Shown here: positions 8,283 through 64,000 of the stretch, one piece after another | Layout of the letters: each line of letters begins with the position of its first letter | How positions within the stretch are numbered: position 1 is the stretch's first letter | Assembly (NCBI GenBank): GCA_030248195.1 | Contig: JASAND010012768.1 | Span: 46,939 to 110,938 of the forward strand | Reading direction: 5' to 3' | Origin: Trissonchulus latispiculum | Lineage: Eukaryota > Nematoda > Enoplea > Enoplida > Ironidae | Length of the DNA: 64,000 nt | Position numbers and translations under genes: made by a program | Notes under the pieces: model-generated | The model's input: the letters and a program-made list of their open reading frames with translations, nothing else | What the model was told of the DNA's origin: nothing | The model's database searches: none

Positions 8283-9195
8283 CTAACCGGTGCACATCCA
8301 ACTGGAGTGGGGCGTACGGAAAAAATAGTCATAACTGCTCTGACCTATGCAATTAGTGTGAGCATTACTCCCTTCTTTGGTAAAAATGTAGTGGTCCAAC
8401 ATGTAAGTAGTCCCCATGGATTCTGCCAGTGACAGGTCCTTTGTCAAATAAGATTGGTCATCCACAATGAACAGGTATACAGCCGCGTAGTCCGTAGTTG
8501 GAAGCCAGTGCGGTGCCTCTTCCATCACCCAACAAAGTTTAAACTCTGTAACGTATCCTTCGCGTTTCTTTAGTACATTGAGGAAGCCTGAAATAGCATA
8601 AACGGAATTAAAATATTGAATGCGTTGATTTGAATACACCGGAAACGTTGTGCCAAATGTTGCCATGAGATAATAACATTGTCGTAATGCTATACTAATA
8701 CATATTCTCCCATTCATAGTTCTGAAAATGTCAAATTCTAATATTAATTTATTCGTTGTCATTTTCACAAATGATTTTTCATCGTGTTTAAACACTTAAT
8801 GGACTTAGGCAGTTTCAGTGACAGTCTTGACACTATTTAAGCCCGCCAGCAGATAAAGTAACTCTTCGAGCTTACTTACTGGAATTTGCAGTGGCAACAT
8901 GAGTATTCGTCTTGGAATTATAAGCCCGTCGGAGAGGTACCATAGTCAATCCAGTTATTGGCTTGGTGGTGCAGTGTCCCAGAACTCCTTTCAAATTAAA
9001 CTGCCCTTGCCCTTCGTCCTTGTCAATTGTGTAGATGGTGTCCGACATAAATCCTTTTTGATCAGTCGCTTTTTCGTACACTGTTCTATCATGGCAAACT
9101 AAAAGTCGCAAAATATGGTCACCGCAACTTAGAATTAGTGCAGCATAATTAAAAAGCAACCAAATACAATGATAATGTTTAATTGATGCTCTCAT
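8283..9195 (-). CDS. Small secreted protein with DUF5648-like (PLYR-type) repeats, copy 1
   Basis: Two-exon minus-strand gene. Exon 1 is 9195..8880 (ATG at 9195), the intron is 8879..8588 with donor GTAAGTAA and acceptor ATTTCAG, and exon 2 is 8587..8283. The phases agree (1 nt plus 2 nt), giving about 206 aa. The N-terminus has a signal-peptide-like segment (IWLLFNYAALILS). The body resembles the repeat family with a 'GY-x-x-x-x-P-x-x-G-x-x-x-VPLYR' signature; here it reads GHCTTKPITGLTMVPLRRAY, with LRR in place of LYR. The protein ends RTPHSSWMCTG. The family occurs in secreted or cell-surface proteins and is poorly characterised. Carbohydrate or surface binding is inference. It is a paralog of the gene at 9700. 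The family name is recalled, not checked. Confidence 0.65.
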
Positions 9196-9699
9196 TTTAC
9201 CAGTCACGTCACGTCTGCAGCGCTACGTGCAAGCCATCTCCGCAATAAGTGGAGAACAGAATCAAAAGTGCTGATTAGTGTAACCAATTAATATAATTGT
9301 ATAGACTGTAAGGCCCTATTTAGTTGGTACAAACTGGTATGGGTACTTTCTCGTTTTTATATGTTCGCTTCTCTATATGGCTGCTAATCTCTACAAGCGT
9401 ATTGTCATTGTTAGACTGGTGGTTACAACACATGCTCGCAATCACCATTTAACATTCATTTGCTTCTGAAAAGTCCTACATCTTTCACATATGAGACAGT
9501 TTTTGTATTAAAGGAAGTTCTAACGTTAATTCAGTTAATATGCTCTAACGTTGTTTCAATCAACAGCAATAAGATGTCTATTCTGCTTTGTGGTTGTTCC
9601 TGGATATGATGTGCAAAGCAATTTATCAACTATTTCGCAAACTTTAATTATGTAACAACTGTCACTGACTTTATAACATCGCTAGTGTTTTAAATTATT

Positions 9700-10208
9700 T
9701 CAACAGCAAAAGATATGAGTGCTCCAACCTTCAGGAGATGGCTTTTCCAAATCGCAGGAGTTAGGTTCTTTAAATATGTAGAAATGTACTGCCCACACTT
9801 CAAAGCCACGTTGACACATATCTGGAATTTTATTCCAGTCATATTCTAAGTAGGTTATTTTCACGCTTCCAAGCAGATACACTGGATGGTAGTTCTCTGG
9901 CTTCATGCCATCGATGCCCTGGAGCACGTAACACACCTCTCCCAGTTGTTCAAAAGGAGGATCAATTGAAGTGGATTTATTGTAAAAATTTTCGTTTGCT
10001 GTATGTCTGTATCTTCCGCCAGTTTTACGCATTCGATAAAGAGGTACTAAATCGAATCCTTCGATAGGCTTTAAGCTGCAGTAGCCAATTGGACTCTTTA
10101 TCATGAATTCTGGAAACTCTGTTACGTCTGTTGTATAAATGCCGTTGTTATTTTCTGCAGCTGAACTTTCATCCATTCGATACAGTGGTAGTATGGTAAG
10201 ACAGGGCA
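9700..10208 (-). CDS. DUF5648-like (PLYR-type) secreted protein, copy 2, 3' exon
   Basis: Terminal exon on the minus strand. The acceptor is AATATTGCAG (AG at 10210-10209), the first two bases complete a codon, and the frame then runs 169 codons to a stop at 9700-9702. It holds two PLYR repeats: LPLYRMDESS...IYTTD and GYCSLKPIEG...LVPLYRM. These are closer to the family consensus than copy 1. The C-terminus (SPEGWSTHIFCC) aligns with the end of copy 1. The upstream exon must end in phase 1. The signal-peptide exon at 13903..13796 ends in phase 0, so at least one intermediate exon is missing from the model or that exon belongs elsewhere. Confidence 0.6.
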
Positions 10209-10229
10209 CTGCAATATTGGAAGAAACCC

Positions 10230-11050
10230 GTTCAGATAGCTTTTAAGTTTAACTTTTTTACTTGTCTTAATATATAGTTTACAAAACAGCAGATGTTGTT
10301 TTCATGAGGGTTCTCTGCATTCTTTTTGGTTCAGAACTAGCTAATCAATACAATTCCCTAAGAAATATAAAATAAAAAAGGGTAATTGTATTCTGGACCT
10401 CTTTAAGGAATTTTATTATTGAAGACCAAAACTGAAGAGAATTGAATATTAAAGACATTGAATTCAGCAAAAATGTGTTGATAGGCATAATCGGAATTAA
10501 AATATAAAAACAAAGTTAAGGGGGGGTCCATTGTGAAAAACTTTTAGACCACGGATTTCGCTCATTTTCACACATAATCTAGCCTTATATGTCTACATTT
10601 CAAGTTTAAATTTTGAGTTGTTTCGTTCAGTTCTCCGTAAGTTATGAGCCATTCATTGGGTACAATTTGAATATCAGCGAAAATGAGGGTGCTGCAGACA
10701 ACTAAAGCAAGTTTGCATAAATCAACTTTATATACTTAGCTTATTTTGTTATGCACATTTAAAAACAATTAATAAAAACATTTTCGAACAGATTCAAGCC
10801 AGAGAAGCATGCTCAGAAGCTTCCTTAAAGGATATTCCGAAGAAACAAGGCTCTTGTTCCCCCCGATGTAATGAAATATTTAAGAGCGCTTAACTTAAAA
10901 TAGAAGCATTTCCGAGCCATAGTTCTATGGGAAGAATTCATCCCTGCACTGAGAGCTTTCGATTGATATATAACATGCCATATTTTGAAAATTTTGAAAA
11001 ATCGCTGTTTTGTGAATTTCGGGGTCTGAGGTTCCCCATTGGCTCACTGA
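10230..11050. other. No gene seen
   Basis: AT-rich sequence upstream of PLYR copy 2. I found no exon with matching phase and no element with clear ends. Confidence 0.35.
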
Positions 11051-11981
11051 GGGCCTATTTCTTCAAAGATTAAAATGGTCGGATTAAACGGATTAAAAAT
11101 CAGCCGGATTAAAATTTTAATTTCTATTTCATTAATGCAGGATTAAACGGATTAAATGGATTAAAATTAGCTCGTTCAATCCGACCATTTTTAATTAAAT
11201 TAAATTAAATTAAACGGATTAAACGAGTTGATTTTAATCCATTTAATCCGCCATTAAAGAAACAGCGATTAAAAATTTTAATACCCCAACTTTTAATCCG
11301 TTTAATCCGCGTAGCTGCACGAGGATTAAAAGTTAGTTGAAAATGCAGGCGGAGGATTAAACGGATTAAAATTTATCTTTAAAGAAACAGCGATTAAGCA
11401 GGTCGGATTAAAATTAACTCGTTGAGTTTTTAATCCTAAAGGCCGGTTCACAGGCTCAGTCGTATGTCGCGTGTCGCGTGTCGCAGAGTCGTATGTCGCG
11501 TGTCGCTTGTCGCGACAGTGTTCACAGGTTCATAGCTTGTTGCGACAAATTGTAGCGTGTCGTAAGGAGTTGAAAATGTTTTAACTTTTGTCGCGTGTCG
11601 CGTGCCTCTAGGATATTAAATGTGGCTTTGGGAAGTGTTGCACTAAGATTTCCTGCGACAGGACATAAGCCTGTGAACACATCAGACACTGCGACAAGCG
11701 ACATGGGACATACTACAAATCCTACGCGACATGCGACATACGACTTGCGACATGCGATACGCGATAAGCGACAGCCTGTGAACCGGCCTTAAGTGTGAAT
11801 AAAGAAACAGGATTAGATTAAAATTTTAATCCTAAGTGCATTAAAGAAATAGGATTAAATTCAATCCGTTTGACTCGTTTAACTCGCTGGATTAAATTTT
11901 AATCAGTTTAATCCGAGGTGCTATTTCTTTAATGCGGATTAATTTTAATCTAATCCGTTTAATCTTTAAAGAAATAGGGCC
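11051..11981. mobile_element. Harbinger/PIF-like MITE built of GGATTAAA motifs
   Basis: The ends are inverted (GGGCCTATTTCTT on the left; AAGAAATAGGGCC on the right, allowing one mismatch) and are flanked by the 3-bp duplication TGA (11048-11050 and 11982-11984). The body is almost entirely variants of GGATTAAACGGATTAAA in both orientations. A T-N-A target site with GGGCC ends is the PIF/Harbinger pattern, so assignment is by ends only; there is no transposase. The element is interrupted by another at 11440-11789. Confidence 0.6.
11440..11789. mobile_element. Second Harbinger/PIF-like MITE nested in the first
   Basis: A 350-bp element with inverted ends AGGCCGGTTCACAGGCT / AGCCTGTGAACCGGCCT and TSD TAA (11437-11439 and 11790-11792). 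Its interior is rich in GTCGCGTGTCGC-type motifs and their complements. It lies wholly inside the element at 11051-11981 and is therefore younger. Confidence 0.7.
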
Positions 11982-16799: not shown

Positions 16800-18426
16800 A
16801 TGAGTACACATAGTAGTATGAGTATTAGTAAGGAAAAAGGTAAATACAATGGAAACGACAAAGCCTTGTGCAAATCTCAGCCAGGGTTTTGTGGTTGAGA
16901 TGAAAAATAAAGGAAAATTACCTGATTGTTTGCCTAATGGTCAGAGGATTTAACGTCAGATGCAGGTCCTTATACCAGTAGGGAAAGAAAAGTAGACCTC
17001 TTTAGCGACTTTTACCAAACTTAAACATCTAACCAAATTTAGGGACTAAAAATTTCTTAACAATTGTTAAATGGTTTAAAATCGTCATTCCGACTAATTT
17101 CTATGACAAATTGTGAGAATTCACAATTTATGCTGATTCTGGGATAAACCCACTTAAAAGTTTGCATTTTTTTGGGTTGACTCCTCCTAGAATAGAGGTT
17201 AGTCCCCAAAATGCCCTATGAGTTAGTGTTGCTGCCCGGCCGGTTTAGTGGCTCGTCCGGCGGGACCCGGCAGGCCCAGTTGAACAGGCCGGCCGGTTCC
17301 AGTTTTGCCCATTTTACAAATGTTTTTGCACTAAATGATACATACAGTCACTCTTGGTTATGTATAACAAATAAAATCACGTATTAACCTGGTTTTGGAA
17401 ACCGGCCGGCCGGATTGGCTATACTGTGACAGATGGAGATATGCAAACATTCGCCTTGGGCTTTCTTGCCTTCACACGATTCTCGGCTTCTCTTTACGCC
17501 TCTCGCCGAGTAAAAGTCAATAAATTTTCACCGATCTAAGATATGTAGAGTTGTGGGATATTTGCTTGCTTTGTCACCGGTAAACTGAAAGTAGCCTAGC
17601 ATTCCAAACCTTCATTGCGACTGAGGATTCTAAACATATATCCTTTATATAGGTTAACTTCAAACGTGAAGTCAGGACAGGTGCTCACAGTTCGGTTCCA
17701 AGCTTTTTGGTCAGTCTTTGGCTTATAGGGTTCTGAGTCTTAGAAACGTTGTGTAGAAGCTTCAGTTCTATAAACAACTGATTCTAAATGCAGTGGAGCA
17801 GATCAGTCTGTGGATATTCGAACCCCGAAGGATCGCACAAATATAAATAAGTCCGAGATAATTCCGCTCACCTTCTGATATTCTGAACTGGACCTTTTCT
17901 TGTTGCGACTTTTGCCTTTGCGGCATTGCTCAATGCATTTGCAATGTAATGAAAAATGGCGATACACCTGCACTAGACAATATCAATTTCAAATCAATAT
18001 CAATCACTTTCGATTAAATTTTCAATGTGATAAAATTTTTCAACTGGTGCCTTCGTAGGACAGAATTCTGTTAACTTTCAGCAGTTCCCGAGCGAAGGTC
18101 TGACACACAAAGGAAACCACTAAATATTTTCCTAATGCTAATGCTAATGTTGAATATTTCCACTACTTTGCTTTGTGAGCACTCTTCGAGGTTGAATCTG
18201 AGTCTCTGACAGCTTCAATGTCTTTCCGATATTGCCAGATTTCTTTTGTTTTGCGTTTTCACAGCTACATATTATATTGTCGACTTAACAACTAGCAATT
18301 ATTAATAAAGATTATAAAATTAATTAATAAACATACTCTGAACATAGTGAGATATATTAACAATTTTATAAAATGGAGCAAGGAAGCTAATTCAGCAGAG
18401 TTGCGTTAAACCATTGGAACTGAAAA
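16800..18426. other. Gene-free stretch with an old family C-like remnant
   Basis: About 16980-17215 is a diverged copy of the sequence found at 48057 and 63128 (TAGCGA...TTTACCAAA..., TTCTTAACAATTG). A GC-rich patch with CCGGCCGG motifs at 17225-17420 looks like another transposon end. I see no gene. Confidence 0.4.
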
Positions 18427-23500: not shown

Positions 23501-23530
23501 AATTTTCTCAGCTCTAGCACTATCAGCACT

Positions 23531-24195
23531 AGTAGTATAGATGATGGATACCCCCCCCCCGTATCTTTAACACATGATGTGTTAACCATATAGCGCCGTC
23601 TTGTTGGACGGGTATTTTTTATAAAAATCAATAATCGGATTGTCAGTTCTTACATGACAACTAATTAATTTAGCATTAAAGACACCACAAAACAGCTGTG
23701 GTTTGCTATAAAATATGTTTGGTTATATCACGTGATGCTTACAAACGTCAAAGCCAGCTAATAGTTAGCTCTAAACTAGCTCAAAATGACGTCATAATTC
23801 CTGGAATTTCGGCAAATATATTTAAAATAATTTCACTAATGACTCAAATATCTCGCTGCCCGCAGGCGCAATCAGCTGCGCTGATTGCGCAAGCGTGCAG
23901 CGAATTCAATTGTTTGCCCCCGCTACCCCCCCCCCCTCTAGCAGATGTTTCTTCTTTACATTAACTTTTGCCAAAAACAGAGGATTGTCACTCCTACAAT
24001 TCTGCTACATGACGCTTCCTACATATTTTCCAGCAGAAATTTACGCTTACGCCGACTTACATCAGACTTACGCCATCATTTGGTAAGTACTTACTGTAAG
24101 CATTGCATCTACTGACGTAAGTAATTGTTTTGAGTCTTACGTCGTCTGGTAAGTATTTATTGTGCACTGACGTATCCTTACGCGAGAATAGTAAT
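23531..24195 (+). repeat. Polinton left terminal inverted repeat
   Basis: The sequence matches the reverse complement of 32230-32892. It begins AGTAGTATAG, then has a C run, a near-palindrome around TTAACACATGATGTGTTAA, and an inner zone (about 24040-24190) rich in ACTTACG / CGTAAGT motifs. Similarity ends at about 24195. Confidence 0.85.
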
Positions 24196-25164
24196 GCTAA
24201 GCGCTTTTCTTCCAGTAAATAAGCAAGTTAACTAAAACATATATATATATATACTCCATTGCCAAAAGCTGTTCTTTGTGGATCCATATTTGCTCCAATA
24301 GCTCTGCATTCTGTTTTCGCATGGATGCTATTTTTGCTATGCTATTTCAAGCTCATTTTCTACATTTGCATGTAAGGGAATCTACTTGTAACATTAAATT
24401 TGCTATTCTGTCTGTCACTGCATGTGCTTAAGAGGTGGCTTGCTTTAACTGTCTGTATGTCTTCCTTACATCGACCATCTCAAGTACTTACTGTCAGTCC
24501 TACTTCGGATGGTATAAGTACCTAATTTAAGCCTTACAGGTGCAAGTAATTGTATTTTGATTCCAGTAATATTTCAGTTGTAAATAGTAATAGAGCAGTG
24601 AAGTTACGTCTCTGTTCAGAATCTGTATTTTCTGTTAAGTATTTTAATTCTGTTGGGCATATGCTTACTATTCTATCAGCAGTGTTCATATGTTTAAGTT
24701 TAACTTAATTATTCGACAACTATATAAGAGTTACGACCTTAATTTTAAAAACTCGTTATATATACCATTTGGATAATAAAATTGTGTAAACCTGCGAAAT
24801 CAGAGAAAGTCCAAAAATGACCCCAAAAGTGCACTCCCCTTAATTGCCGACTGACCTACATTTTATAGCAAAGCCTGCATTTTATATCAGGGTCTGTAAG
24901 TCTGTTCAAAAGTCTGCATTTTATACCCAAGTCTGCATTTTATACCCAAGTCTGCTTTTTATACCCTGGTCTGCTTTTTATACCCGAGTCTCCGTCTGCA
25001 TCAAAGTCTGCGTTATATACCCCAGTCTGCTGGTCTGCGTCTGGCGTCTGAGGCCCAAATAATTGGCAGCTTTTACATACTACAACAACACCCAGATGAG
25101 CATTGGACATATAACCACGGCAACTTTTTTACTACAACATATCAAGACGGTTTAAGCAATCAAA
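24196..25164. other. Polinton left interior, non-coding
   Basis: AT-rich sequence between the left TIR and the polymerase 3' end. At 24850-25040 a degenerate tandem repeat (about 18-24 bp units of the form AAGTCTGCATTTTATACCC) repeats roughly eight times. No reading frame resembles integrase, ATPase, protease or capsid proteins. Confidence 0.55.
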
Positions 25165-28100
25165 CTAATCTAAGTAACCAAACGGTAAAGTGGTAAAGTC
25201 ATCTTTCAAAATACGTTTATCATAAACACGCTGGTACTTCTTAGTAGTGGTTTTGCTGTGAATGCTCAAATCTCTAGCATTCTTGCTAATTTGGGAATAA
25301 TTGACTGGTAAATGTTGTCCAGAGTACAACAGATTGATCATTGTTTCTTTGGTGATCTTCTTTGAAACGGAAACGTTCAATGGGACGCCTTTGATTTTGA
25401 GTTCTGTTAATCGTGTTCCATCTTTCTTTAGGACAGTGAAGCCATAATTCTTTGGACCCAATGACCAGAACTGCTCCACTTTGGCATCTAACCCATAACT
25501 GTCTTCTATTTCGTCTTTCAGATCGCCCAGGCCATGCCCTGTAGTAGGCTCAGCTTCTACTTCAGTTTTGTTGCTGATGAAGAAAATACTGTCTGAAACA
25601 AACAAAGATAATAGTTAAGTAAGTAAGTAAGTAAATATTATATACTTCCCTCCAGATAGCAGTGACCTGTTGCGAGGCCCCTTATGAACATTCAATGCAA
25701 GCTACCCCGCTTCACGCAAGGTTATCGTCATCGAATGTAGGAAGCTTGCCGAAGGCTTGTCGTCCACACTTTTGTGTGCATAACAGTAGAACGAGACCAT
25801 AGCTGCCCGAGCATGTGAAACAAATAAACAAAATAATAAATGATTAACAAGTTTGAGTTTAGAAATTGCTGCACCATTTGCCTTGTCACAGAACCTAGTT
25901 CACATTCCCTCCCGTGCGTGCAATCTTATTAAGAAATTTGCCTGCATGTGCTGCAAAATTCGTTCAATGAAGTTGAATATTGCTATATCGAATGTTCCTG
26001 TGTTATTAACTTCTGGATTTGTGTTAAGATGCTTTCTGTCTGTTCTTTATTTTATTTTCGGTTCTTTCCACACATATATACGTACTCGTGTACACAAAGA
26101 AACTCTGTCCTCTTTCTTTTACTTACCAGTGTCGAAGTACAGAATCTTCCGACCCAATTGTTCCAGGTATGAGTACAACTTTATTCGAGCGTAGCATGTG
26201 GTAAACGCTGCAATAACCACATTACTTGTGGAATCTGGTTCCATTAAGTCAATTTTCCTCTTATAGGAAATTTGTGCCATTGAATTGAATTCTGTAAAGT
26301 ACAGATCGGTTATTTCCAGAGTGTCATCCAGCAAATAATCAACCAGGCTGTGATAATCCGATACATAGACGGTGTTTGTGAAGTTGGTTCTCTTTCCAAA
26401 ATAGCCCCAAAAGCTGAAACCAAATATAATTTGACACAGGTGTTATATCCTCCAACTTTCATTGTACAATATGTTCAGCTTTGGTAAAGTCAATAAATTA
26501 AAGTTTGAGAGAAACTTAGTTGAAGTGATGGAATTTATAGCATTAATTAGTCCAAGTATTGTGGCATGGTCGTCTATTTTTATGTTTATAAACATATTCC
26601 ACGTATACGTAATGTGAAGGAAGTCAGTGGTTATGACAACTACAACTCAATCTACTTTCTTTAAATTACTGAAATCAGTTCAAGTTACGGTACAAAATTA
26701 AATCTCACCTATTTAACATGGTCTTTGCAACAGCTCTTTTACCAGGATTCTTCTCTATTTTATGAGGTTCGAGAACAACGCCTTCTTGTTCTTCAAAATT
26801 TGAAACATATTTTCTTTTTTCATCATCTGATCTGCAGTTAGATGGCCATCCATTGGCTTCTTGCTTGAGTTTTAAAAACGTTTGAATATACTGCAGGAAC
26901 AATGACGACGACTTCTTTTCCCAATGCCAAACTTCGTAAACTTGAAGGACCTGATAACCTAACAAAACAGCCTTCTCTATTTCTGGTGAACACCAAGTTC
27001 CCACAATAGCCCTATCATCGGGCGGATGTTCGCATTTAGTCGTTTGGCACGTGTCTGCGCAAGTCCTGCACAAAGGAAATAATAGCTTGTTTCGGCTTTT
27101 GTAACCGAGAACTGGATGGAAAAGATTTCGTGGCGGAAGTACTTTCAGTTTCAGCAAACCGAAATACAAGTCTATAGAAGTAAAAGATTCGGTAATGATA
27201 GTAGGATGACCAACAGGATACAGCTGTGTAGCATTTACCCAAGGATAGAGTGATGTTATGTCAAAGTACTTTATAGTTTCGTTTAACTGTGCTGTATGAA
27301 ACAGCTTAACAGCATTGCACCTTCCCCCCATGAAGGCTTCTCTTGGGATAAGTCTTGTTTCCAAATCCATGCTATCATAAATACTTCGCAGGTTTAAGTC
27401 AGTCATCAATAGATGATCAAATTGACATTCCCATATGTAGACTACAGTTAATCCTTTAGCTTCTAGCAGTCGATTTCTGTCAAACGTCTTTTCATAGCGT
27501 TTACGCAATTCCGAGAAATCAGTGCAGGTTCTTGTGTTGATACATTGGTGACCATGGTAGAAGCAACCGAAGAATTCGTATGCTGTGGATGGTTGTTTGA
27601 AACCGTCTAGATAAAAATTTTCTATCCTCACTTCGCCTCCATTTAGCGCATGGCGTATGTATATTGATTGTTCCTCGCTTAACCATTTGAGCCAAGCTAT
27701 GCTCTTTCGACTGAATTTTTTCTGAGCTTTATATCCCATAGGAGGTATTATCGCTACAGTATTCATTGGCATAAAATTTCTTCTGTACACTCGATTACAG
27801 GCAGAGGCTATTGTTATAGAGCTGGCAAATGGGTCAACTCCATCAGTCGCGACCTCAAACTCTTCTTTAAACTTCATGCATGCTTCACGCAGAATTGTGA
27901 CATCGCTAATACAATACTCTAACAATTCTTCTTGAAGATTAAATTCAAGGGAAGGATTCTCTTCGTATCGTCGAGTTTCCGCTGTGTACCAATCAACCAA
28001 TTCTTTGTATGCAGCGTTCTTTCGGCTGTATGGATCATAGTACTTTAAATCTGGAAGCCGCCCGACATAAGTCTGGTGATGAGGTGTGTTGAAAAGGTAA

Positions 28101-29960
28101 GGAAAGTGACCCTTTTTCAGTTCTGTCAGTCCAAATGTCTTCGGAAGTTTAGAAAGGGCCATTCCAAAGAAGTTTAGGGAGTCAATAAATCGTAAGTTCC
28201 GTCCAGCTACGGTAAGCATTAGTATTTTTCCTCCCCGGCGAATAAGCTTTGGCTGAACAGCGTTCTGGTGTAGGTACTCAAGAATAAAGTATCCGTCGTA
28301 GCTGCCGAAGTTGTGTGCAATAAATGTTGCGTTGCGAATACTCCGAAAAATCCATGAGCAAAATTCATTCGCGCAGTCGTCTCCTTTGAATATCATCATT
28401 TCTCCAGTTTGTGATTGCGCAACGCATAAATTTGGGATGTGCTTCAGGTCTGGTTGAGTTATCATGCATTCGAAATCAAAAAACCAGTATTTATTGCTGT
28501 GACTGAAAGGCCTTTCTTCAGGCAGCAGTTCAGTTTGATTTGCCTCATCCTCTTCACTGACTTTCTTTGCCCAAGCTTCTGCACTTGCATCCACTTCTTC
28601 GTCTCCAGACAGGTCTGATAAGCTATCAGCATATTCATGATGAAGTTCTTCATTTATATTATCAGTTTCCAGCACGTTGTCGGCCACAGTATTATTTTCC
28701 TTTTTGATGCATTGGATATAGCATAAATGATTTGCTGGTTGTTGGGTCCGGCAAACAGAGCAGTAATAAAGACCGCAGCTATGAGCTTGAGAAGGCGCCA
28801 GTTTGCTTCGTTTAACGACACGGGAGCATTTACGGCAGCGGGCAAAAGCGGCACAAACGGTTTTCTTGTGATGACTGTAGCAAGTTGAGGTGAGCCAGTG
28901 CCGGTTGCAGTCAACACAATAAATAGCTTCCTCTTCCGTTTCAGTGTTGCTGTTTTTACAATTCGCGTACTTGCAAAACTGGCAACTACTTTCACATCTG
29001 TGTTCACCTTTAGCTCGATTGAAACCTCGTTTACATTTGTCACAGAAGTAAGATGTATTCATGAAGCCTGCCATACTGGTTATGACGTCATAATGGTTTT
29101 GATACATCAATAGATTGATTTGTTTCTTTCTGTATAACCCACTGTATACTAGCTTACCAAATTCGTCTATAGACCATACATTTATCTGATATTCTGGTAA
29201 TGCCTTTTGACATGTCTTGATATCTTTCAAATTCAGGTAAGACCCACGAGTGAATCCACACTGGTTGTATAACTTTGTAAGACGATGCTCGCGTTCGGGG
29301 CAAATCTTCTTGTCCATTCTGGTCAAATTCTTTAGTGATCTATCTCTACCTTTTTTCCCAAGTTTTATTTCTACAGTGCCTGCTTCCTTGGCATGTTGGT
29401 GATCCACCATGGCTTGGGCAATTACTATTGCATGTCCAAGACAATCTTGCTCCTCAAGGACCCGATAGATGCAACGTTTCTTCCGAAGAAATTCTGGCAA
29501 GTCGATAATTGATCTAGTGCGAAGGTTCCCAATTCTTGGTTTTCCAGTTCCACCAGCTGGCAATGAAATGCGGGTAAATGTGATCTTCACTGTGTCGTCA
29601 AAAACGAAGTCCTGATAGGACTGTAGTACTCTGGCAATTTCATTTAAAATCAACTCTGCGTTCACATCAGCTCTATCAACTAGGGGCACAATCACTGGAA
29701 AATCAAGCGTAGGTGATTCCAGTGCAAACCGAACCTTATCTTGTGGAGCCGTTTCTTCTAATATTTCAGTAAAGGCAGAGTCAAGCGCATCTCTAAGGCG
29801 TGTGTATATGTTTTCTAATGTGAGCCCATGCATTCCGATCAAGCGAAAGTTGTAGTCACTTTCTTTCGCTCTAAACTTTGTAATGTCGTGTTCCCTTGTT
29901 TTCGATAATGCATAAAATGGCTGTTTGGTGTCTCCAGCAGAATCTTCTTTGGTAGTTGAG
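25165..29960 (-). CDS. polB: Protein-primed DNA polymerase B (Polinton type), three core exons
   Basis: Replicative polymerase expected to copy the element using a protein primer. Exons are 29960..26709, 26413..26127 and 25592..25165, with acceptors TTATTTTTAG, TTGGTTTCAG and TTGTTTCAG and donors TAG|GTGAGA and CTG|GTAAGT. All phases agree. The N-terminal part has a Cys/His-rich zinc-ribbon-like region (CDKCKRGF...CQFCKYANC...CRKCSRVV). The 3'-5' exonuclease motifs are FFDFEC, HNFGSYDG and SDVTILREA. Polymerase motif A is YFDITSLYP. Motif B (Lys, then the Asn-Ser pair before Trp-Gly) is assembled across the second junction, and motif C (the Asp-Thr-Asp catalytic site) across the third. A KxY motif (KNY) follows. 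All catalytic residues I can check are present and there is no internal stop, so the gene looks intact. Confidence 0.88.
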
Positions 29961-30545
29961 CTAAAAATAAAATCTCTATGTCAATGCAAGAACTACGGAA
30001 GCCAGCACAGAATACAACAAGCAAATTGGCATGAATGGGTTGCCGCTGGCATTTTTCCTCTTATCGAGGGACATAACTTAGTTTGCATGCAGTTAGGAGC
30101 TTTGGCTCTATTACAACTTTTATTCATTCAACGAGAGCTTTCAATGATACCCATATTAGACTGATACCGTTACTTTAAATTTTGAACCATTCTGCAGCAT
30201 CACCGTATCGAGTACTTTTTTGTTCCGCAAACCTGTCCAAAACGCAATTGCAACTTTTTATCTACTCAATTACTCAATTTTTATCGAGCTTTCGAATGAT
30301 ACCGATATGAGCCCGATCTGAGAACTTTACATTTTGAGCCATTTTGGCCGTCTTTAATCTTTGTTTTGTTTTGTGGTTCTTTAATTAGTTATGCATGCTA
30401 GGAGGACTAGATTTTACCGTACGAAACTACTTTTGGTTTAATCTCGCAAGAATCGTCTAATTAATGGAAGGATCTGAAGGTTAGCGTTTATACATGGTAA
30501 ATAAGAGTCAAAATATATACGTACGTAAAACTTTGATAACTATAC

Positions 30546-30833
30546 CTTTCTGGTACTCCGGCGCCTTCCTGAACGGTTATGCATACTGACGAAGTGGACG
30601 GTTCTGAATCAACAACAGTATTGTCTTTGTTACTGCTGCTAGCCACTTTCTTATATGGTACGGCACATTTGGCTGGTTTAGCATGACGTTTTCGATTATG
30701 GGTTTCAAGGTTGTCTCTCCGAGCAAAAGTCTTCCCACAGACGGCACATGATAATTTATGATCAATGCCAAAATGTTCGTGCAGATCTTTTCGTGACGGT
30801 AGAATCTTGCCACAGACAACGCAAGTTACTGAC
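30546..30833 (-). CDS. Upstream zinc-finger exon of the polymerase gene
   Basis: The exon encodes two C2H2 fingers: CVVCGKILPSRKDLHEHFGIDH and CAVCGKTFARRDNLETHNRKRH (each quoted in outline: C-x2-C-x12-H-x3-4-H). A Ser/Thr-rich linker follows. The acceptor is TTTTTGTAG (AG at 30835-30834) and the donor is AAAG|GTATAG (30546/30545). The phases match the exon at 29960 (2+1 nt) and the exon at 31274..31012. N-terminal C2H2 fingers in polymerase-associated proteins of such elements would fit DNA or TIR binding; that role is inference. It could instead be a separate small protein. Confidence 0.6.
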
Positions 30834-31011
30834 CTACAAAAATCAATACATAAATATAAATTAAGAAAAAATTTGACTGAGGTGAAAAGTCGTAAATGTT
30901 TCATGAAATAATCAAATTATTACGGTTTCTGAAAATCAATAACTATTGCTGCTACGCTACTATTAAAGAAAACGATAACAAGATATTTCATTATCAAAAA
31001 TGTTAACGTAC

Positions 31012-31274
31012 TGTTCTGAGTTTCCCTCGTCGGACGAAAGAGTAATGAAAAAAAGAAGGAGATAAAGCACCCATTTCGAGGACAAACAAGCATTGATGCA
31101 GAAGTGAATAATATGTGCGAAAATGTTACTGATAGCAAGGCCAATGCCAGAAATGAAACTATTCCAAATAGTGCCAGCAAGCAGAATAGTCTTTCGCATG
31201 CTCGTGCAAAGTTTGGGCAGGGTAGAATTGAATCTTCCTATTCTTGCCCTCCAGCTTGAGATATCATTGCCCAT
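31012..31274 (-). CDS. First exon: N-myristoylation motif and hydrophobic segments
   Basis: ATG at 31274 starts MGNDISSWRARIGRFNS. The Gly2 and Ser6 pattern fits an N-myristoylation signal. Two hydrophobic stretches follow (LAGTIWNSFISGIGLAISNIF and WVLYLLLFFITL). The possible donor ACA|GTACGT at 31012/31011 leaves phase 2, which matches the one-base start of the zinc-finger exon, with a 178-bp intron. If joined, the whole gene is about 1,505 codons in five exons. If not, the frame continues to a stop at 30963 and gives a stand-alone membrane protein of about 103 aa. I do not recognise a family. Confidence 0.45.
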
Positions 31275-32229
31275 GCTAAAAATAATTATATCGGAATCTA
31301 AGATGGAAGGTTAGAAACTTAGAAGATAGAAACATTAAAAGTAGAGGTAACATCCAAATAGCAAAATAAAAACTTATGTTTAGAGTGGGTAAACCAATGA
31401 TTGTATAATGAACAAGATCTCTGGATATTTTCGTTTATGCTTAAACCGAGAAGCATGGCTTCAGTTGTTTAATAATAAAGTTTCTTTGCTGCATCAGACA
31501 ATCAGGTTGCGTAGTGAATAGATAACTTATCAGCTTCTCAAGAGATTTAGTTTCAAATGAATTGAAATAGTATTAAAGATCATGGAGTGGTAAAGCATTC
31601 TTCTATTGTTTAAATATTATTTAAACAATTTTAGAAGGTTCGTATGCAACATCATACGGTCAGGTTACGTAGTGAGCAGATGATTTAGTTTACTGCTGCA
31701 TCTAAATCGGAATATCTTTCTTTCATATAACATAACGCATATAACTTAATTTACCAATATCTAAATCTAATTATCTTTCTTCAATTCAATTAAATCTAAC
31801 TATTTAAGATCAACGTATATTTGTTATACATATTTAAAACGCCGCTATTTAATAAACTTCTTTTGCAGTGTTCATTGATCAAGTTTCAATTTGCGAAGAG
31901 GTAAAAATTTAGCTATTCCTTTCTCTACGGTTCATCGATTACAACATAATTTCAACTTGTGTAAGTTGGACACAATTTCAGTACCGCGTGTTAGTGATGT
32001 AAGTTAAAGGCGCAGCAAGAGTTTTGCAAAAAAACGCTTCAGCATATTCTCCGAATTACGAAAAGATAAGGAAAAAACACAAAGAAGGTATGCTTAAGTC
32101 TCTAAGCTTGCTGGCTTTTGAAGTAAAATATTGATGATTCCCATTATTGGCAAGAGAACAACTGCACTGCGACGTAGTCACTTAGCTAACAAGTTCGCAA
32201 AGTAGCTGGCAGACTGGCCTAAGCGTCAA
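31275..32229. other. Polinton right interior, non-coding
   Basis: About 950 bp of AT-rich sequence upstream of the first polymerase exon. It presumably holds the promoter. No open frame of interest and no second gene is visible. Confidence 0.5.
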
Positions 32230-32892
32230 CATTACAATTCTCGCGTAAGGATACGTCAGTGCACAATAAATACTTACCAGACGACGTAAGGCTCAAAACA
32301 ATTACTTACGTCAGTAGATGCAATGCTTACAGTAAGTACTTACCAAATGATGGCGTAAGTCTGATGTAAGTCGGGGTAAGCGTAAATTTCTGCTGGAAAA
32401 TATGTAGGAAGCGTCATGTAGCAGAATTGTAGGAGTGACAATCCTCTGTTTTTGGCAAAAGTTAATGTAAAGAAGAAACATCTGCTAGAGGGGGGGGGGT
32501 AGCGGGGGCAAACAATTGAATTCGCTGCACGCTTGCGCAATCAGCGCAGCTGATTGCGCCTGCGGGCAGCGAGATATTTGAGTCATTAGTGAAATTATTT
32601 TAAATATATTTGCCGAAATTCCAGGAATTATGACGTCATTTTGAGCTAGTTTAGAGCTAACTATTAGCTGGCTTTGACGTTTGTAAGCATCACGTGATAT
32701 AACCAAACATATTTTATAGCAAACCACAGCTGTTTTGTGGTGTCTTTAATGCTAAATTAATTAGTTGTCATGTAAGAACTGACAATCCGATTATTGATTT
32801 TTATAAAAAATACCCGTCCAACAAGACGGCGCTATATGGTTAACACATCATGTGTTAAAGATACGGGGGGGGTATCCATCATCTATACTACT
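32230..32892 (-). repeat. Polinton right terminal inverted repeat
   Basis: Reverse-complement partner of 23531-24195. Visible differences are homopolymer length (8 versus 10 in the terminal C/G run) and scattered single bases, for example CCCCGACTTAC versus GCCGACTTAC. The small open frames here duplicate those of the left repeat and are not genes. Confidence 0.85.
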
Positions 32893-32922
32893 AGCACTAT
32901 AAAGCCTACTACGGTGGCAAGG

Positions 32923-33965: not shown

Positions 33966-35014
33966 ATTCCTAATTTTCCAGTTAATTGGTTTTAATTGGC
34001 TAAACTGTGTTCATATTTTAGGCGATGCCACAGCCTACGGTGACAGCTGGCAGGGCCACAACTGCGGCTTCACCGACCTGCCAGCGAAAGCGAAAACCTA
34101 CTTCGCTGCCATCATCAGTGGGACGGTGGTCGAAATTGCGGTCGATGCGCCCGAATCCGGTATTCGACCGGGAAAACAATCGATGTTCAGATCACGGATC
34201 AGTGTCCGGAATGTCGGCACGGAGATCTGGATCTGTCCAGTCACGGATTTCGGGAACTGACCGGATCCCATCCGGCTCGTCTCCCGATTTCCTGGGACTG
34301 GATCGGATGTCAGGAATCCGGTTTTGTTTCCGGAAATCTGAAACTCTACCTAAAGGACGGCTCAAATCCGTGGTGGTTTGCCATCCAGCCCCGGAATTTT
34401 GTTCAACCAATTTCCGAAATTCGGATGGAGACGGGCGGGGAAACTATCAACCTTCAGGGACCCGGATCAAATTCCATCAGTAGCTACTTTTTTGTTGGAC
34501 AAAAATCTAATGGTCTTTCGGGGTCGCTTAAGATTGTGCTAACCTCAGCTAACGGTCAATCTAAGACTGTTTTTGCGCCAAAGCTTTGGACGGCTGGGAA
34601 AACCATTCAGACTAATGTGCAGTTTTAGGAAAAAACACAAAAAACTAAGACTTAATGATTTCTGATAATTGATTTTGAGAGAATTAAATGGTTCCTTGTT
34701 TGCACTGTTTACCATAATTGATTTAGTCATCTCATCAATAAAATGAGTGTATGCTTATAATTAGTAAATTAAAATTTAAAATAAATTAACATAATTATGT
34801 TTGAATTCTACTAATTTGTTTTGACGAAATTCGTCACAGTGGAGCTGGAGTTTACAAAATCTAAATTTGAATGCAGGAGAGTGATTAAATTAAACCAAGA
34901 GATTAAACTAATGTATTACATGTTTATGTTATAGTTTATTATAGCTTATCCTGTGCTTTATATTCCAGTTGTTGTTTTCAAAATATTCTGTGCTCTTGTA
35001 AATCAGACATATAA

Positions 35015-41904: not shown

Positions 41905-41985
41905 GTGTCTCTGTGGCTCAATCGGTAGAGCGTCGGTTTAGGCAACTGAAGGTTGTAGGATCTTTTCCCACCTTAGACCAAAATT
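41905..41985 (+). repeat. tRNA-like SINE head (S2 type)
   Basis: TGTGGCTCAATCGGTAGAGCG is a good A-box region. The B-box region (GTAGGATCTTTTCCC) is mutated and the acceptor stem does not pair fully. Confidence 0.5.
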
Positions 41986-57300: not shown

Positions 57301-58253
57301 GACATGGTCTAAATGTTTTCAGCTGGCCTTGAACTTACTACCTCTTGGTACTACCAAGAGTACATAATACATATGTATTAGGCACTCTTGGTACTACCTA
57401 ATATGTGACACGCCAGTTTTGCAAGAACTTAATTCATCATTCACTTCATTCTTACTTCGTTTATACAATTTTAACTAACATTTATGTGATTTCTTTATTT
57501 AATTTGATCTTCCTGGCGTTATCCCCTGTCCGAAGTATTTTTAGCTCCATGTACCATGAATTCAATTTTCAAGGTCTCGTATTCCCTACGAACCAACGGT
57601 TGTTCTTTCATGTCGTGTTTTTGAAGAACCTTGACGAAAGAACCTTGCATTTGCACACCTGCTTTGTCGATAGTCAATATTCAAAATATTCAAAGAGACC
57701 CACGAAAACACCGAGAACCGTCTTGCTAAGGTGTCGTTAAAGATGTACATTTTAACTCGCCTTTTGAGCGAAATGAACTAAGATTTGTTAACTCGAACTC
57801 TAGTTATGTATCGGCTGTGATGTTAGCACACCCTGTTATCATCACCTGTGTACAAGCATTCTTAGGTATGTAACAGAATAGGAGTTTGCTGGAGTGATCA
57901 ATTAGCGGCACTTTTTGAACCTTTCTGATGGCAGGGTTACCAGCTGGATACCAGAAAATGTTCTGGAAAATGTCCGCCCACACATGACCTGGCACGTCTT
58001 GTTTGGATTTTCCAGTCAGAAATGATGGCCTCCTACGCCGTAATTCAGAAAAGTTGGAATGTCCTATTGGAAATAAAACGGTGATCACAAGCATCGACCA
58101 AGCGCCACCGATCAATATCACCAATACAGATCGATAATTGATCAATCGACTGGATGTCATGTGGGATTGTGAATCGAACCAACCAAAATGAACACTGATA
58201 TGGAACACGATTAAAGACATTACGATGACTAAGGTGTAATGTAAGCTTTTCAT
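54388..58253 (-). CDS. Carbohydrate sulfotransferase (Sulfotransfer_2-like), copy 1
   Basis: Golgi-type enzyme expected to transfer sulfate from PAPS to glycans. Exons are 58253..57846, 56884..56795, 55831..55650 and 54910..54388. Donors are ACAG|GTGATG, AAA|GTATGT and CT|GTAAAG; acceptors are TTTCTTTCAG, TTCTTTTCAG and GGTTTTAG. All phases agree, giving about 400 aa. Two N-terminal hydrophobic segments are visible (TLVIVMSLIVFHISVHFGW and VLVILIGGAWSMLVITVLF), where one anchor is usual. The 5'-phosphosulfate loop is LLFCYIPKNACTQ, split from the next exon just after Gln, and the 3'-phosphate site is LRDPISRFISGF. A Trp/Phe-rich C-terminal half follows (FWDHFFPQFWFCDF). It looks intact. Intron 1 holds a 36-bp family A MITE. 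Confidence 0.82.
57355..57390. mobile_element. Minimal 36-bp family A MITE (copy 8)
   Basis: CAAGAGTACATAATAC and ATGTATTAGGCACTCTTG face each other with essentially no interior. Exact 7-bp duplications GTACTAC flank it (57348-57354 and 57391-57397). It is the smallest copy in the window. Confidence 0.8.
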
Positions 58254-59737
58254 CGTTTAAACACTGTCTATTCAATGACTATCAGCGGGTGCATCTAGAG
58301 TCTGGACAGGCTTGGAAAAGATCAGCTGCATAGAAGAAACAACTAAAATCTAAAAACGTATAATTTTAAGTATGGGAGAGTATTTTAATGAATGATTAAC
58401 GCCCTCCACCGGATGAATAAAATTTTAATCTGTTGCAATATTTATTATGTAATGCGATATTTACAAGGAGATAAAAACTGTAGTTTTTGAGGTTGTTGAT
58501 TTTTAATTAAATAGGGAACTAATAAACAAAGAAGTTTTTTTGCCATGCAAAGTTCGCAAAGCTAAGCTCTAGTGTAGTCGAAAATGGATTCAACGATTTG
58601 TTTCTACATCTCCAATGTCGGGATACAGATCTCGACTCAAGGTCTCAAACGGAAATATAGTATTGATTATTCTAGAAAAAATGCCCCCAAGCGAGGGCTC
58701 CAGCCCAGCGGTTTTGATAACTAAACAAGTAAAGCTAGTTTACTTGATATTCGCAAAATTTGATACTGTCAAATGTCCTGTATGTATCAGGGGTGATTTC
58801 AATTAGACTAAGTATTTGGGCAGACGCAGAGTAATAATATGTTAGGCAATGTTGACTGATGCAATGCTCTAGGAAACACGATTTAACTATGTAGTTATTA
58901 CTACGCTGTAGAGACAACTCATCAGGATGGAACTACGCTTGACTTAATTATATCTGTAATGACTCTCTTAATAGATTAACCTCATTCTCTTCAAACTTCT
59001 GACCAATTAATTATTGCTGGCAATTTGGACCTTACAATGGGACTTTAGCCAATGTGTCCATCAATAACCTACACTTGCCAACAACAAATTTTGCGGGAAT
59101 TTAAAGCTACTGATGAGGGTATTGAATACAACTACTGCAGAATCTGTTTCTATCGTTGCAGAAGTTCATGTGTTTTCCAAATTTTCAAAGCTAGAACCAT
59201 GTTGCGAGTGAGTTGAAAGAGTTGAGTTAGAAAGTTTGAACTCGCTAGCGATGCAGGCGACTTCAAATAAACTGTTTAGTTTTTTGACAATGTGACTGGA
59301 AAAAATTGAGTTTAATTGAGGGCTACAAATATGCGTACTCTTAGGGCGACAAAAGTTACCAGGGTGACCAGTACTTCAAGACTATACCAACATCTCTACC
59401 TGTAGATAGTTATTGCTGAATAAATTTCATTGACAGGCTAAACAACGACGAATTAACGGCTCTTGAGATATGTGCCTCAATTTGCATTGACTGAGGCTAT
59501 ATTTGGAAAAGTTTAACATTTGTTGTTTTGTCTAAAGGTGTCCGACATTCGTTGTGGCATTTCAACCAGACTTGAATATCAGCAATTGGAGTGAAATTTA
59601 GCACATATCTGTTCCCCATATGTGCCGATAATCACTTCAAATGTGGCTGTAATGTTGCCATTTGGCTGAACCTCAGAAACCTCTACAGAAGAGAAGTTGC
59701 AAAGTCTAGAAAAATTTCTTTTCTTTTGCTTTATTTA
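58254..59737. other. Spacer between the sulfotransferase copies, left part
   Basis: AT-rich sequence upstream of copy 1, presumably including its promoter. No supported gene or bounded repeat. Confidence 0.35.
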
Positions 59738-60650
59738 AAGAATTGGCTTGTAGGAATCTGGTGGGGCCCCCAAAATTGGAAGAGAAAATTAATCCTTTAA
59801 TTGCTCTCCTGCTGAGACGTTGGTCTGTATTAAGGAAACGTGGAAAGGTCAAATGTAAAGGTCAATAGTTTGGGGGCCGCATCAGATTCTCTAACCGCAA
59901 AATTAGTACAAGATATTAAAACTTTCGAAAACAGTAGTTTAAAGGTTAGAGCAACGTTATAAGGTTTTACTATGTTATAATAATAATCAAAATTAAAAGT
60001 TAAAGCTTCTCGATAGTGTGAATCTCATTAAATCTGTTACTCTTAAACAAAATTGTGCTAAGTTACACAGTTTATTTTTAGCTTTAAGGACATTACTGTT
60101 TTTAGGAATTAATGTAGTTTTAAATTTAAAAAACAATTTTCTGAACATTTTTAATATGTACAGTTACAGTAGAACTCCATTAATCCAGGCAACTTAAAAC
60201 TTACTTTCTTACTTAATTAATTAAATTAATTTCATTTAATATTTGCGTTTTCAATCAGTTTAATTGCATAATTATTTGTCAAATATTTGAATACTGTTCG
60301 AATTCCAAAACTGGGGACTTCTAAATTCAATATATATTTTGTACTTTTGCACTAACTTTGTAGTTAAAGAATCTGATGGGGCCCCCAAACCTATTGACCC
60401 TATTGACCTTGACCCCCAAAACCTTATAACGTTGCTCTAACCTTTAAACTACTGTTTTCGAAAGTTTTAATATCTTGTACTAATTTTGCGGTTAGAGAAT
60501 CTGATGCGGCCCCCAAACTATTGACCTTTACATTTGACCTTTCCACCTTTGTTTAATACAGACCAACATCTCAGCAGCAGAGCAATTAAATGATTAATTT
60601 TCTCTTCCAATTTTGGGGGCCCCACCAGATTCCTACAAGCCAAAGAATTC
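59738..60650. mobile_element. Long inverted-repeat (foldback) element
   Basis: A left arm of about 230 bp (59741-59970; GGCTTGTAGGAATCTGGTGG, GGGGCCCCC, GGTCAATAGTTTGGGGGCC) is mirrored on the right (about 60412-60645). A third partial copy of the GAATCTG-x-TGGGGCCCCC end occurs at about 60368, so the right side appears to hold nested ends. The loop is AT-rich. No reading frame or clear target duplication. Confidence 0.6.
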
Positions 60651-61032
60651 TTTACATCTTCTTTCTTTTTCTTTCCCCTAAAGTTCAGACGTGGCTGTAC
60701 TAGTAAGGCAACTTGTAACATTACAATATAAATTTTGTAACTGTAACAAGAAACACTGTAGGCAAGAGTAGCAATCGGCCACATCAAACATGCCAAGCAT
60801 GCTGCTACCAATTTCGTGGCGTCCAGGAAAAATTACAGTCACAGCATCTTAGCATTTGAGCAATTTGAGACAGCAAGAATGGCAAGTAAGAATAGCAAAT
60901 TTTAGTTCTTCCGTATTTTGAGCAACAAAACGCCAACTTGCGGCTATTGTCAAAGCCTGAATCTCAGTTGGTGAATCAAAACAGTTCCAATGAAGCACAC
61001 GCGTTAACGACTGCAGCGAACAAATAAAAACT

Positions 61033-63917: not shown

Positions 63918-63944
63918 TTCTGATGGCAATCTTTCTGATGGAAA

Positions 63945-64000
63945 CAAGAGTACATAATAACTAAGAGTGTTCTCAGGTGTGACTCACACTCTCATTGTAA
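63945..64000. mobile_element. MITE family A, left end at the window edge (copy 9)
   Basis: CAAGAGTACATAATAACTAA followed by an AGAGTGT...ACACTCT hairpin, cut off by the window end. It begins 27 bp upstream of the sulfotransferase copy 2 ATG. The adjacent 7 bp on the gene side are ATGGAAA. Confidence 0.75.

Follow-up and report, generated by a model that had tools for sequence, protein, structure and literature searches.

Polymerase-only Polinton-type elements in the nematode Trissonchulus latispiculum, probable satellites of resident full-length Polintons

A 9362-bp element at positions 23531-32892 of the window, i.e., of the whole 64,000-nucleotide stretch of DNA that was analyzed, is in our reading a polymerase-only Polinton satellite, which would be replicated by its own family B DNA polymerase (PolB) and integrated in trans by the integrase of resident full-length Polintons. 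We give this reading a probability of roughly two in three. The structure is that of a replication module, consisting of the small open reading frame (ORF) orfS and a zinc-finger PolB gene, which is enclosed by Polinton-type terminal inverted repeats (TIRs) and lacks the integrase/capsid module. Repeated insertions with 6-bp target site duplications (TSDs), purifying selection on PolB, relatives in the same genome whose integrase and capsid frames are open, and TIR arms changing together were all observed. By definition, a Polinton carries both PolB and integrase, and the polymerase-only elements are therefore addressed here as Polinton-derived satellites and not as Polintons proper.

The initial annotation had reported a perfect 6-bp TSD and TIRs of about 665 bp, and both are confirmed in the bases (Table 1). 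The two arms differ by three substitutions and three single-base gaps, the latter in homopolymers. The host assembly (733,804,655 bases, 734 Mb, in 21,732 contigs) was searched with the TIR, whereby 40 of 325 candidates were scored. Among these, the whole 665 bp were matched only by the window element and an element on contig C5606 (four arms), and the inner ~290 bp were likewise confined to these two. Another 36 matches, at 84-87% identity, are limited to the outer part and reach to position 363-406, other matches being shorter or weaker. Full-length relatives with the same TIR, for which a search had been proposed, were found in part: copies with integrase and capsid genes (e.g., C2021, C7815, and C1853) are bordered by the outer TIR at this identity, but have only this outer part in common with the window element. 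These relatives are putatively autonomous and possible helpers. The CTTACG/CGTAAG-type repeats of both arms are possible candidate sites for the polymerase or a host factor. Elsewhere in the window, ARAGORN predicted a tRNA-Pro (AGG) at 41907-41979, and the regions 57804-63983 and 34022-34628 contain what we take, by resemblance, to be host ORFs, namely repeated sulfotransferase-type genes and an expansin-like ORF.

Table 1. Features of the window element (window positions) and locations of the further complete polymerase-only elements (contig:positions).
Feature	Position	Strand	Basis or remark
Left TSD AGCACT	23525..23530		read from bases
Left TIR, terminus AGTAGTATAG	23531..24196	+	outer ~373-406 bp also in relatives (84-87%)
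CTTACG/CGTAAG-type repeat cluster, inner left TIR	24046..24183		9 matches
Minisatellite, 19-bp unit	24856..25031		resembles repeats dispersed in host genome
PolB C-terminal exon (DSIFF..., stop at 25165)	25165..25592	-	GT/AG borders
PolB middle exon (SFWGYFG ... YFDT)	26127..26413	-	GT/AG borders
PolB main exon (exonuclease domain, DITSLYP, start of NSFWGYFG)	26709..29960	-	PF03175
PolB N-terminal C2H2 zinc-finger exon, 5' border approximate	30546..30835	-	GT/AG borders
orfS, small ORF (MG.D.S.WRARIG.F; hydrophobic C-terminal stretch)	30966..31274	-	homologues beside PolB
Right TIR	32230..32892	-	
Mirror CTTACG/CGTAAG-type cluster, right TIR	32244-32364		8 matches
Right TSD AGCACT	32893..32898		read from bases
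Polymerase-only element	C5606:9834-19241		TSD AACGCC
Polymerase-only element	C19441:28636-39285		TSD CACAGA
Polymerase-only element	C2511:2250-12766		TSD TTTGGC
Polymerase-only element	C11758:2673-13256		TSD GTTGAA
Polymerase-only element	C16599:4599-15630		TSD AGCGGC

The PolB gene, which had been annotated as an apparently intact protein-primed polymerase, is indeed of the protein-primed-type family B; it lies on the minus strand, comprises at least four exons with GT/AG borders, and its minus-strand piece 26708-29980 matches PF03175 with an E-value of 5.6e-44. By eye, the catalytic motifs (A, B, and C) are complete, as the exonuclease motifs and DITSLYP are located in the main exon, NSFWGYFG spans intron 2, and YFDTDS spans intron 1. 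No start-codon exon was located upstream of the zinc-finger exon. Protein priming would be expected from the family to which this PolB belongs. In a PolB intron (30068-30192), 12 substitutions relative to C5606 are clustered in near-identical surroundings and possibly represent a conversion tract. The nearest PolBs outside the host genome show 30-35% identity (seven proteins); an IMG/VR scan with the PolB exon yielded three pattern matches with no relative among them, and a PDB sequence search gave no match up to E 0.1. Within the same genome, the window PolB is ~65% identical to PolBs of full-length Polintons, and the suggestion of a new self-synthesizing lineage was therefore overstated.

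Homologues of integrase, capsid, ATPase, and protease genes were not found in the window element. When its non-coding parts were compared by tblastn with 10 proteins from a full-length relative, all scores were at chance level (best E 0.26), and no remnants of lost genes stood out above chance. The four gene types that the initial annotation could not recognize were thus not recovered in this analysis either. Among pieces of all six polymerase-only elements described below, the only matches with E <= 1 were at 0.066 and 0.44, neither of them in the window element. The value of 0.066 is also the best one obtained for the RVE integrase by tblastn with two integrases, compared to 1.9e-54 for the sensitivity control of the integrase/capsid-module search, a 34%-identical integrase in C8713. 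In the four further elements on C19441, C2511, C11758, and C16599, no homologues of X152 (our name for an ORF of C1853), ATPase, integrase, capsid, protease, and TBP were found at E <= 0.01, and a module of the type found in Polinton-like viruses (PLVs; MCP, mCP, and ATPase) was not detected in the polymerase-only elements. When ten ORFs from these four elements and from C1853, including the largest unexplained ones, were compared with Pfam, only the zinc finger matched.

The statement that the element carries only a polymerase had overlooked orfS. This ORF adjoins PolB in polymerase-only as well as in full-length elements and was found in 13 of the 15 loci in which the N-terminal side of PolB was read, the window included, with no match in C13231 and C15512. 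All six polymerase-only elements have homologues. The orfS of C11682 contains an in-frame stop, and that of C11758 lacks the ATG at the usual position. For pairs with finite dS, excluding those with C16599, dN/dS is 0.25-0.43. The predicted product has ~90-100 aa and no recognized nuclease motif; it had no match in Pfam, and a protein search returned a single, non-significant candidate. One may speculate that orfS takes part in replication.

Polymerase-only copies recur with different TSDs, a point that the initial annotation had proposed to check. Altogether, six complete elements of 9362-11032 bp with six different perfect 6-bp TSDs were identified. The element on C5606 has the same design as the window element, a different TSD, and unrelated flanks, so that the polymerase-only form itself must have moved. 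Both candidate places for the right interior of C5606 are those of the window and C5606 themselves, and for its full left interior, where 40 of 1461 candidates were scored, no place beyond these two was found, other matches being restricted to the minisatellite region or to other parts. In the coding pieces, the two elements differ by five substitutions in 4812 bases (three synonymous, two non-synonymous), and the PolB frame of C5606 is interrupted by three one-base indels in homopolymers, which are either real or assembly errors. The other four elements (10.5-11.0 kb each) were found by reading past PolB; their arms show 97.2-98.5% identity where aligned, and all four contain the zinc-finger, middle, and C-terminal PolB exons together with orfS. 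In C16599, the stretch 8311-11094 is PolB according to the genome search. The flanks of C11758 and C16599 are ~98-99% identical over most of the compared length and less so in a repeat. The window element is nearly identical to that on C5606, as is C11758 to C16599, and the number of lineages among the six is therefore four. Because there are six such elements and, among the scored candidates, the inner TIR is confined to the window element and C5606, the element is not a unique deletion derivative of a full-length parent with the same TIR, the case that the initial annotation had named as its refutation. It is nevertheless still likely that the polymerase-only form arose when the capsid/integrase module was lost.

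A PolB census was carried out on the best 42 loci scored of 1089 candidates. Six of these correspond to the complete polymerase-only elements; in 20, PolB is adjoined by X152 and/or integrase/capsid genes, and 16 are unclassified (C11682, C14615, C15821, C11922, C19815, C8412, C21419, C17003, C11997, C12488, C10661, C16480, C19130, C9553, C14371, and C11163). Counting PolB loci that are missing from the integrase/capsid lists as polymerase-only was ruled out, since C8713 carries a distant integrase; such loci were therefore left unclassified. In C14615, which is close to the window element, there is no X152 in the 832 bp past PolB, where the assembly stops before the element end. The PolB main exons of C19441, C2511, and C11758 (clade B) are 79-81% identical. 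Their pairwise dS values of 1.26-1.38 are near saturation and imprecise, with dN/dS of 0.075-0.099, compared to 1.43-2.20 for wrong-frame controls on the same alignments. For the window PolB and that of C11682, dN/dS is 0.143 (wrong-frame controls 1.53 and 1.97). Given the low dN/dS of clade B at a dS of ~1.3, PolB appears to be maintained by selection in elements without integrase and capsid genes.

With the PolB of clade B as query, 42 of 1104 candidates were scored, and six loci were assigned to the clade, including C16599, C21655 (76%), and C18031 (75%); the next best showed 67%. All four members of this clade for which both ends were read are polymerase-only, and their PolB main-exon matches are without a stop. 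C18031 sits at a contig start. In C21655, the 1454 bp that come after PolB contain neither X152 nor a recognizable TIR, although the TIR starts within ~1.2-1.35 kb in three of the four sister elements. In the phylogenetic tree, two polymerase-only clades are separate, and the full-length element C11789 stands beside clade B (92/92); with two outgroups, the branching order is unresolved. The best tree needs two changes of the polymerase-only label, and a single origin is not rejected (p-AU 0.08, with C11682 counted in). Besides module loss, module recombination is a possible route of origin.

Among the full-length relatives, C1853 carries on a single strand the genes for a TBP homologue, protease, capsid, integrase, ATPase-like protein, X152, PolB, and orfS. 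Its protease is of the adenovirus type (PF00770, 4.2e-4, just below the curated cut-off), and its integrase comes with a chromodomain (PF00665, PF00385). The 454-aa protein may be a DJR-type capsid protein, as indicated by its position and by weak DJR matches of its homologues P0008 (E 0.013), P0025 (2.4e-5), and P0053 (5.8e-6), all below the curated cut-off; P0115 and the query itself gave no DJR match up to E 10, and a PDB sequence search with the capsid protein one chance match. The smaller capsid-like protein is a putative assignment by position, and the ATPase-like protein a putative one mainly by position, with a weak AAA match. On its left side, C1853 does not end in the family terminus, and the identity between its arms is no higher than 86%. 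In C11789, TIRs of the family were located at 2079-2421 and 17270-17619; they show 69-71% identity to the C2511 TIR and start with AGTAGTAAACATGG, and the 15.5 kb between them contain PolB, X152, integrase, and capsid genes. C11789 is the one full-length element in which both TIR ends were inspected, and its 6-bp flanks (CATACT/ATAATT) do not match. Genome searches listed at least 93 places for the capsid gene, of 1696 candidates, and at least 108 for the integrase, of 4019 candidates, the best 15 of the latter without an internal stop. The capsid proteins of C12783 and C11789 are 98 and 96% identical to that of C1853 and the integrases 94 and 91%, but the PolBs of the three elements are only 48-65% identical, which argues for an exchange of modules between elements.

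Several further observations concern the Polinton complement of this genome. The TBP homologue of C1853 (L011:1340-1903; PF00352, E 1.1e-21) is also present in L017 and L023 and as fragments in L016 and L022. We know of no other Polinton that carries a TBP homologue, and none was found among the titles and abstract openings of the literature searched. Two non-autonomous elements of 5.1-5.2 kb, L013 (C2061:76568-81658; perfect TSD TATAAA) and L019 (C18514:9948-15139; perfect TSD TAAGTT), are largely palindromic and have no PolB match. L046 (C8713:31741-35741) belongs to a second Polinton lineage, in which PolB and the distant (34%) integrase face each other.

The TIR arms of the polymerase-only elements change together. 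In the outer 250 bp, C5606 has four changes that occur in both of its arms and in none of the 16 arms compared from 15 other elements. Three changes of this kind distinguish the window element, together with a fourth whose position is variable among the others. Near the inner TIR end, two changes separate the left from the right arm in the window element and C5606 alike. As both-arm changes arose after the split of the two elements, the arms exchange sequence in the polymerase-only form. This fits panhandle or strand-displacement replication; gene conversion, including conversion from unsampled elements, is also possible.

In the satellite mechanism that we favor, PolB would be expressed and would start protein-primed copying of the linear element at both TIRs, as its family leads one to expect, presumably with a preference for its own element as template. 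The integrase of resident full-length Polintons would recognize the common AGTAGT... ends and insert the copy, resulting in the 6-bp TSD. Speculatively, the copy may also travel in Polinton capsids. The initial proposal of a streamlined element that borrows its integrase agrees with this as far as the PolB, the Polinton-type ends, the mobility, and the need for an external integrase, if any is used, are concerned; the integration in trans itself is what we infer. Whether the polymerase-only Polintons form an old and diversified class that has lasted long by replicating itself and stealing integration, perhaps also encapsidation, from full-length Polintons, and that serves as free-standing polymerase modules in a genome with exchange of polymerase and capsid/integrase modules, is a broader claim on which we are evenly balanced.

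The elements could instead be ordinary non-autonomous derivatives, in which the capsid/integrase block was deleted repeatedly and a doomed PolB is carried along by chance, with both PolB and integrase acting in trans. We regard this as unlikely. It would agree with the existence of full-length relatives that have similar ends and share the PolB-orfS side, with the frame breaks in the C5606 PolB, with the PolB-less family members on C2061 and C18514, and with the two label changes on the best tree; however, the strong purifying selection on PolB in the three clade B elements compared, at a dS of ~1.3, argues against a passenger gene, and recent independent deletions would not predict a clade in which four of four fully read members are polymerase-only and free of PolB main-exon stops. 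That the element is autonomous, with integration performed by an unrecognized gene such as orfS or by the polymerase itself, is very improbable. The occurrence of orfS in all six elements and its lack of Pfam matches or homologues found by protein search would leave room for such a function, but orfS is also present in the integrase-bearing C1853, its short product with the hydrophobic C-terminal stretch shows no nuclease motif, and TSD length and terminal AGTAGT are as in Mavericks (PMC8097293). Finally, identical TIRs or repeats could have made the assembler drop the capsid/integrase module, and many Polinton copies in the assembly do stop at contig edges; yet one design is seen at six loci with matching TSDs on both flanks, and the left interiors of the window element and C5606 are one sequence over 970 bp, which makes an artefact hardly credible.

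In a PolB-only lineage under selection, replication would be split from integration and packaging. The polymerase-only elements would allow a direct test of this, with PolB acting in cis on its own DNA and the integrase in trans on the common ends. Linear protein-primed plasmids are likewise small linear replicons around PolB and TIRs; the window element differs from them in that it sits in a genomic contig with TSDs. With Polintons/Mavericks it shares the protein-primed-type PolB, TIRs of hundreds of base pairs starting from AGTAGT, and the 6-bp TSD, and among the best 42 of 1089 candidate loci the closest PolBs outside the polymerase-only elements are, two unclassified loci apart, those of full-length-type Polintons of the same genome. 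It differs from them in that RVE integrase, capsid proteins, ATPase, and protease were not found in the polymerase-only elements and in the size of the latter, 9.4-11.0 kb compared to 15-20 kb. Vertebrate Mavericks are described as having two gene modules, AGT-AGT ends, and 6-bp TSDs (PMC8097293), and the RVE integrase as the universal Polinton/Maverick signature (PMC4642659). Krupovic et al. (2014) reported nine MCP-less Polintons that are also without protease and ATPase, and removed elements of <10 kb as incomplete (PMC4028283); the absence of MCP, protease, and ATPase is alike here, but integrase-less polymerase-only families are not described in the parts consulted. Integrated PLVs without integrase were suggested by Yutin et al. 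(2015) to use resident Polinton integrases in trans (PMC4642659). PLVs retain the capsid module, and PolB is present in only several of them; the window element is the reverse. For Entamoeba histolytica, Polinton-type family B2 polymerases were reported, and integrase, protease, and ATPase were not found in the genome (PMC3511435). In the parts of that report consulted, these solo polymerases appear as genes and not as TIR-bounded elements, whereas the genome studied here is rich in possible helpers. A TIR-bounded polymerase-only Polinton family was not found in the titles and abstract openings of the literature searched, which included few subscription papers and no Repbase reports. The findings suggest that surveys in which short elements are dropped may overlook a class. 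The recurrence of one design within one genome further suggests that the satellite class is a lasting one. If this is true, Polintons would gain a satellite tier, like the virophage or transpoviron systems.
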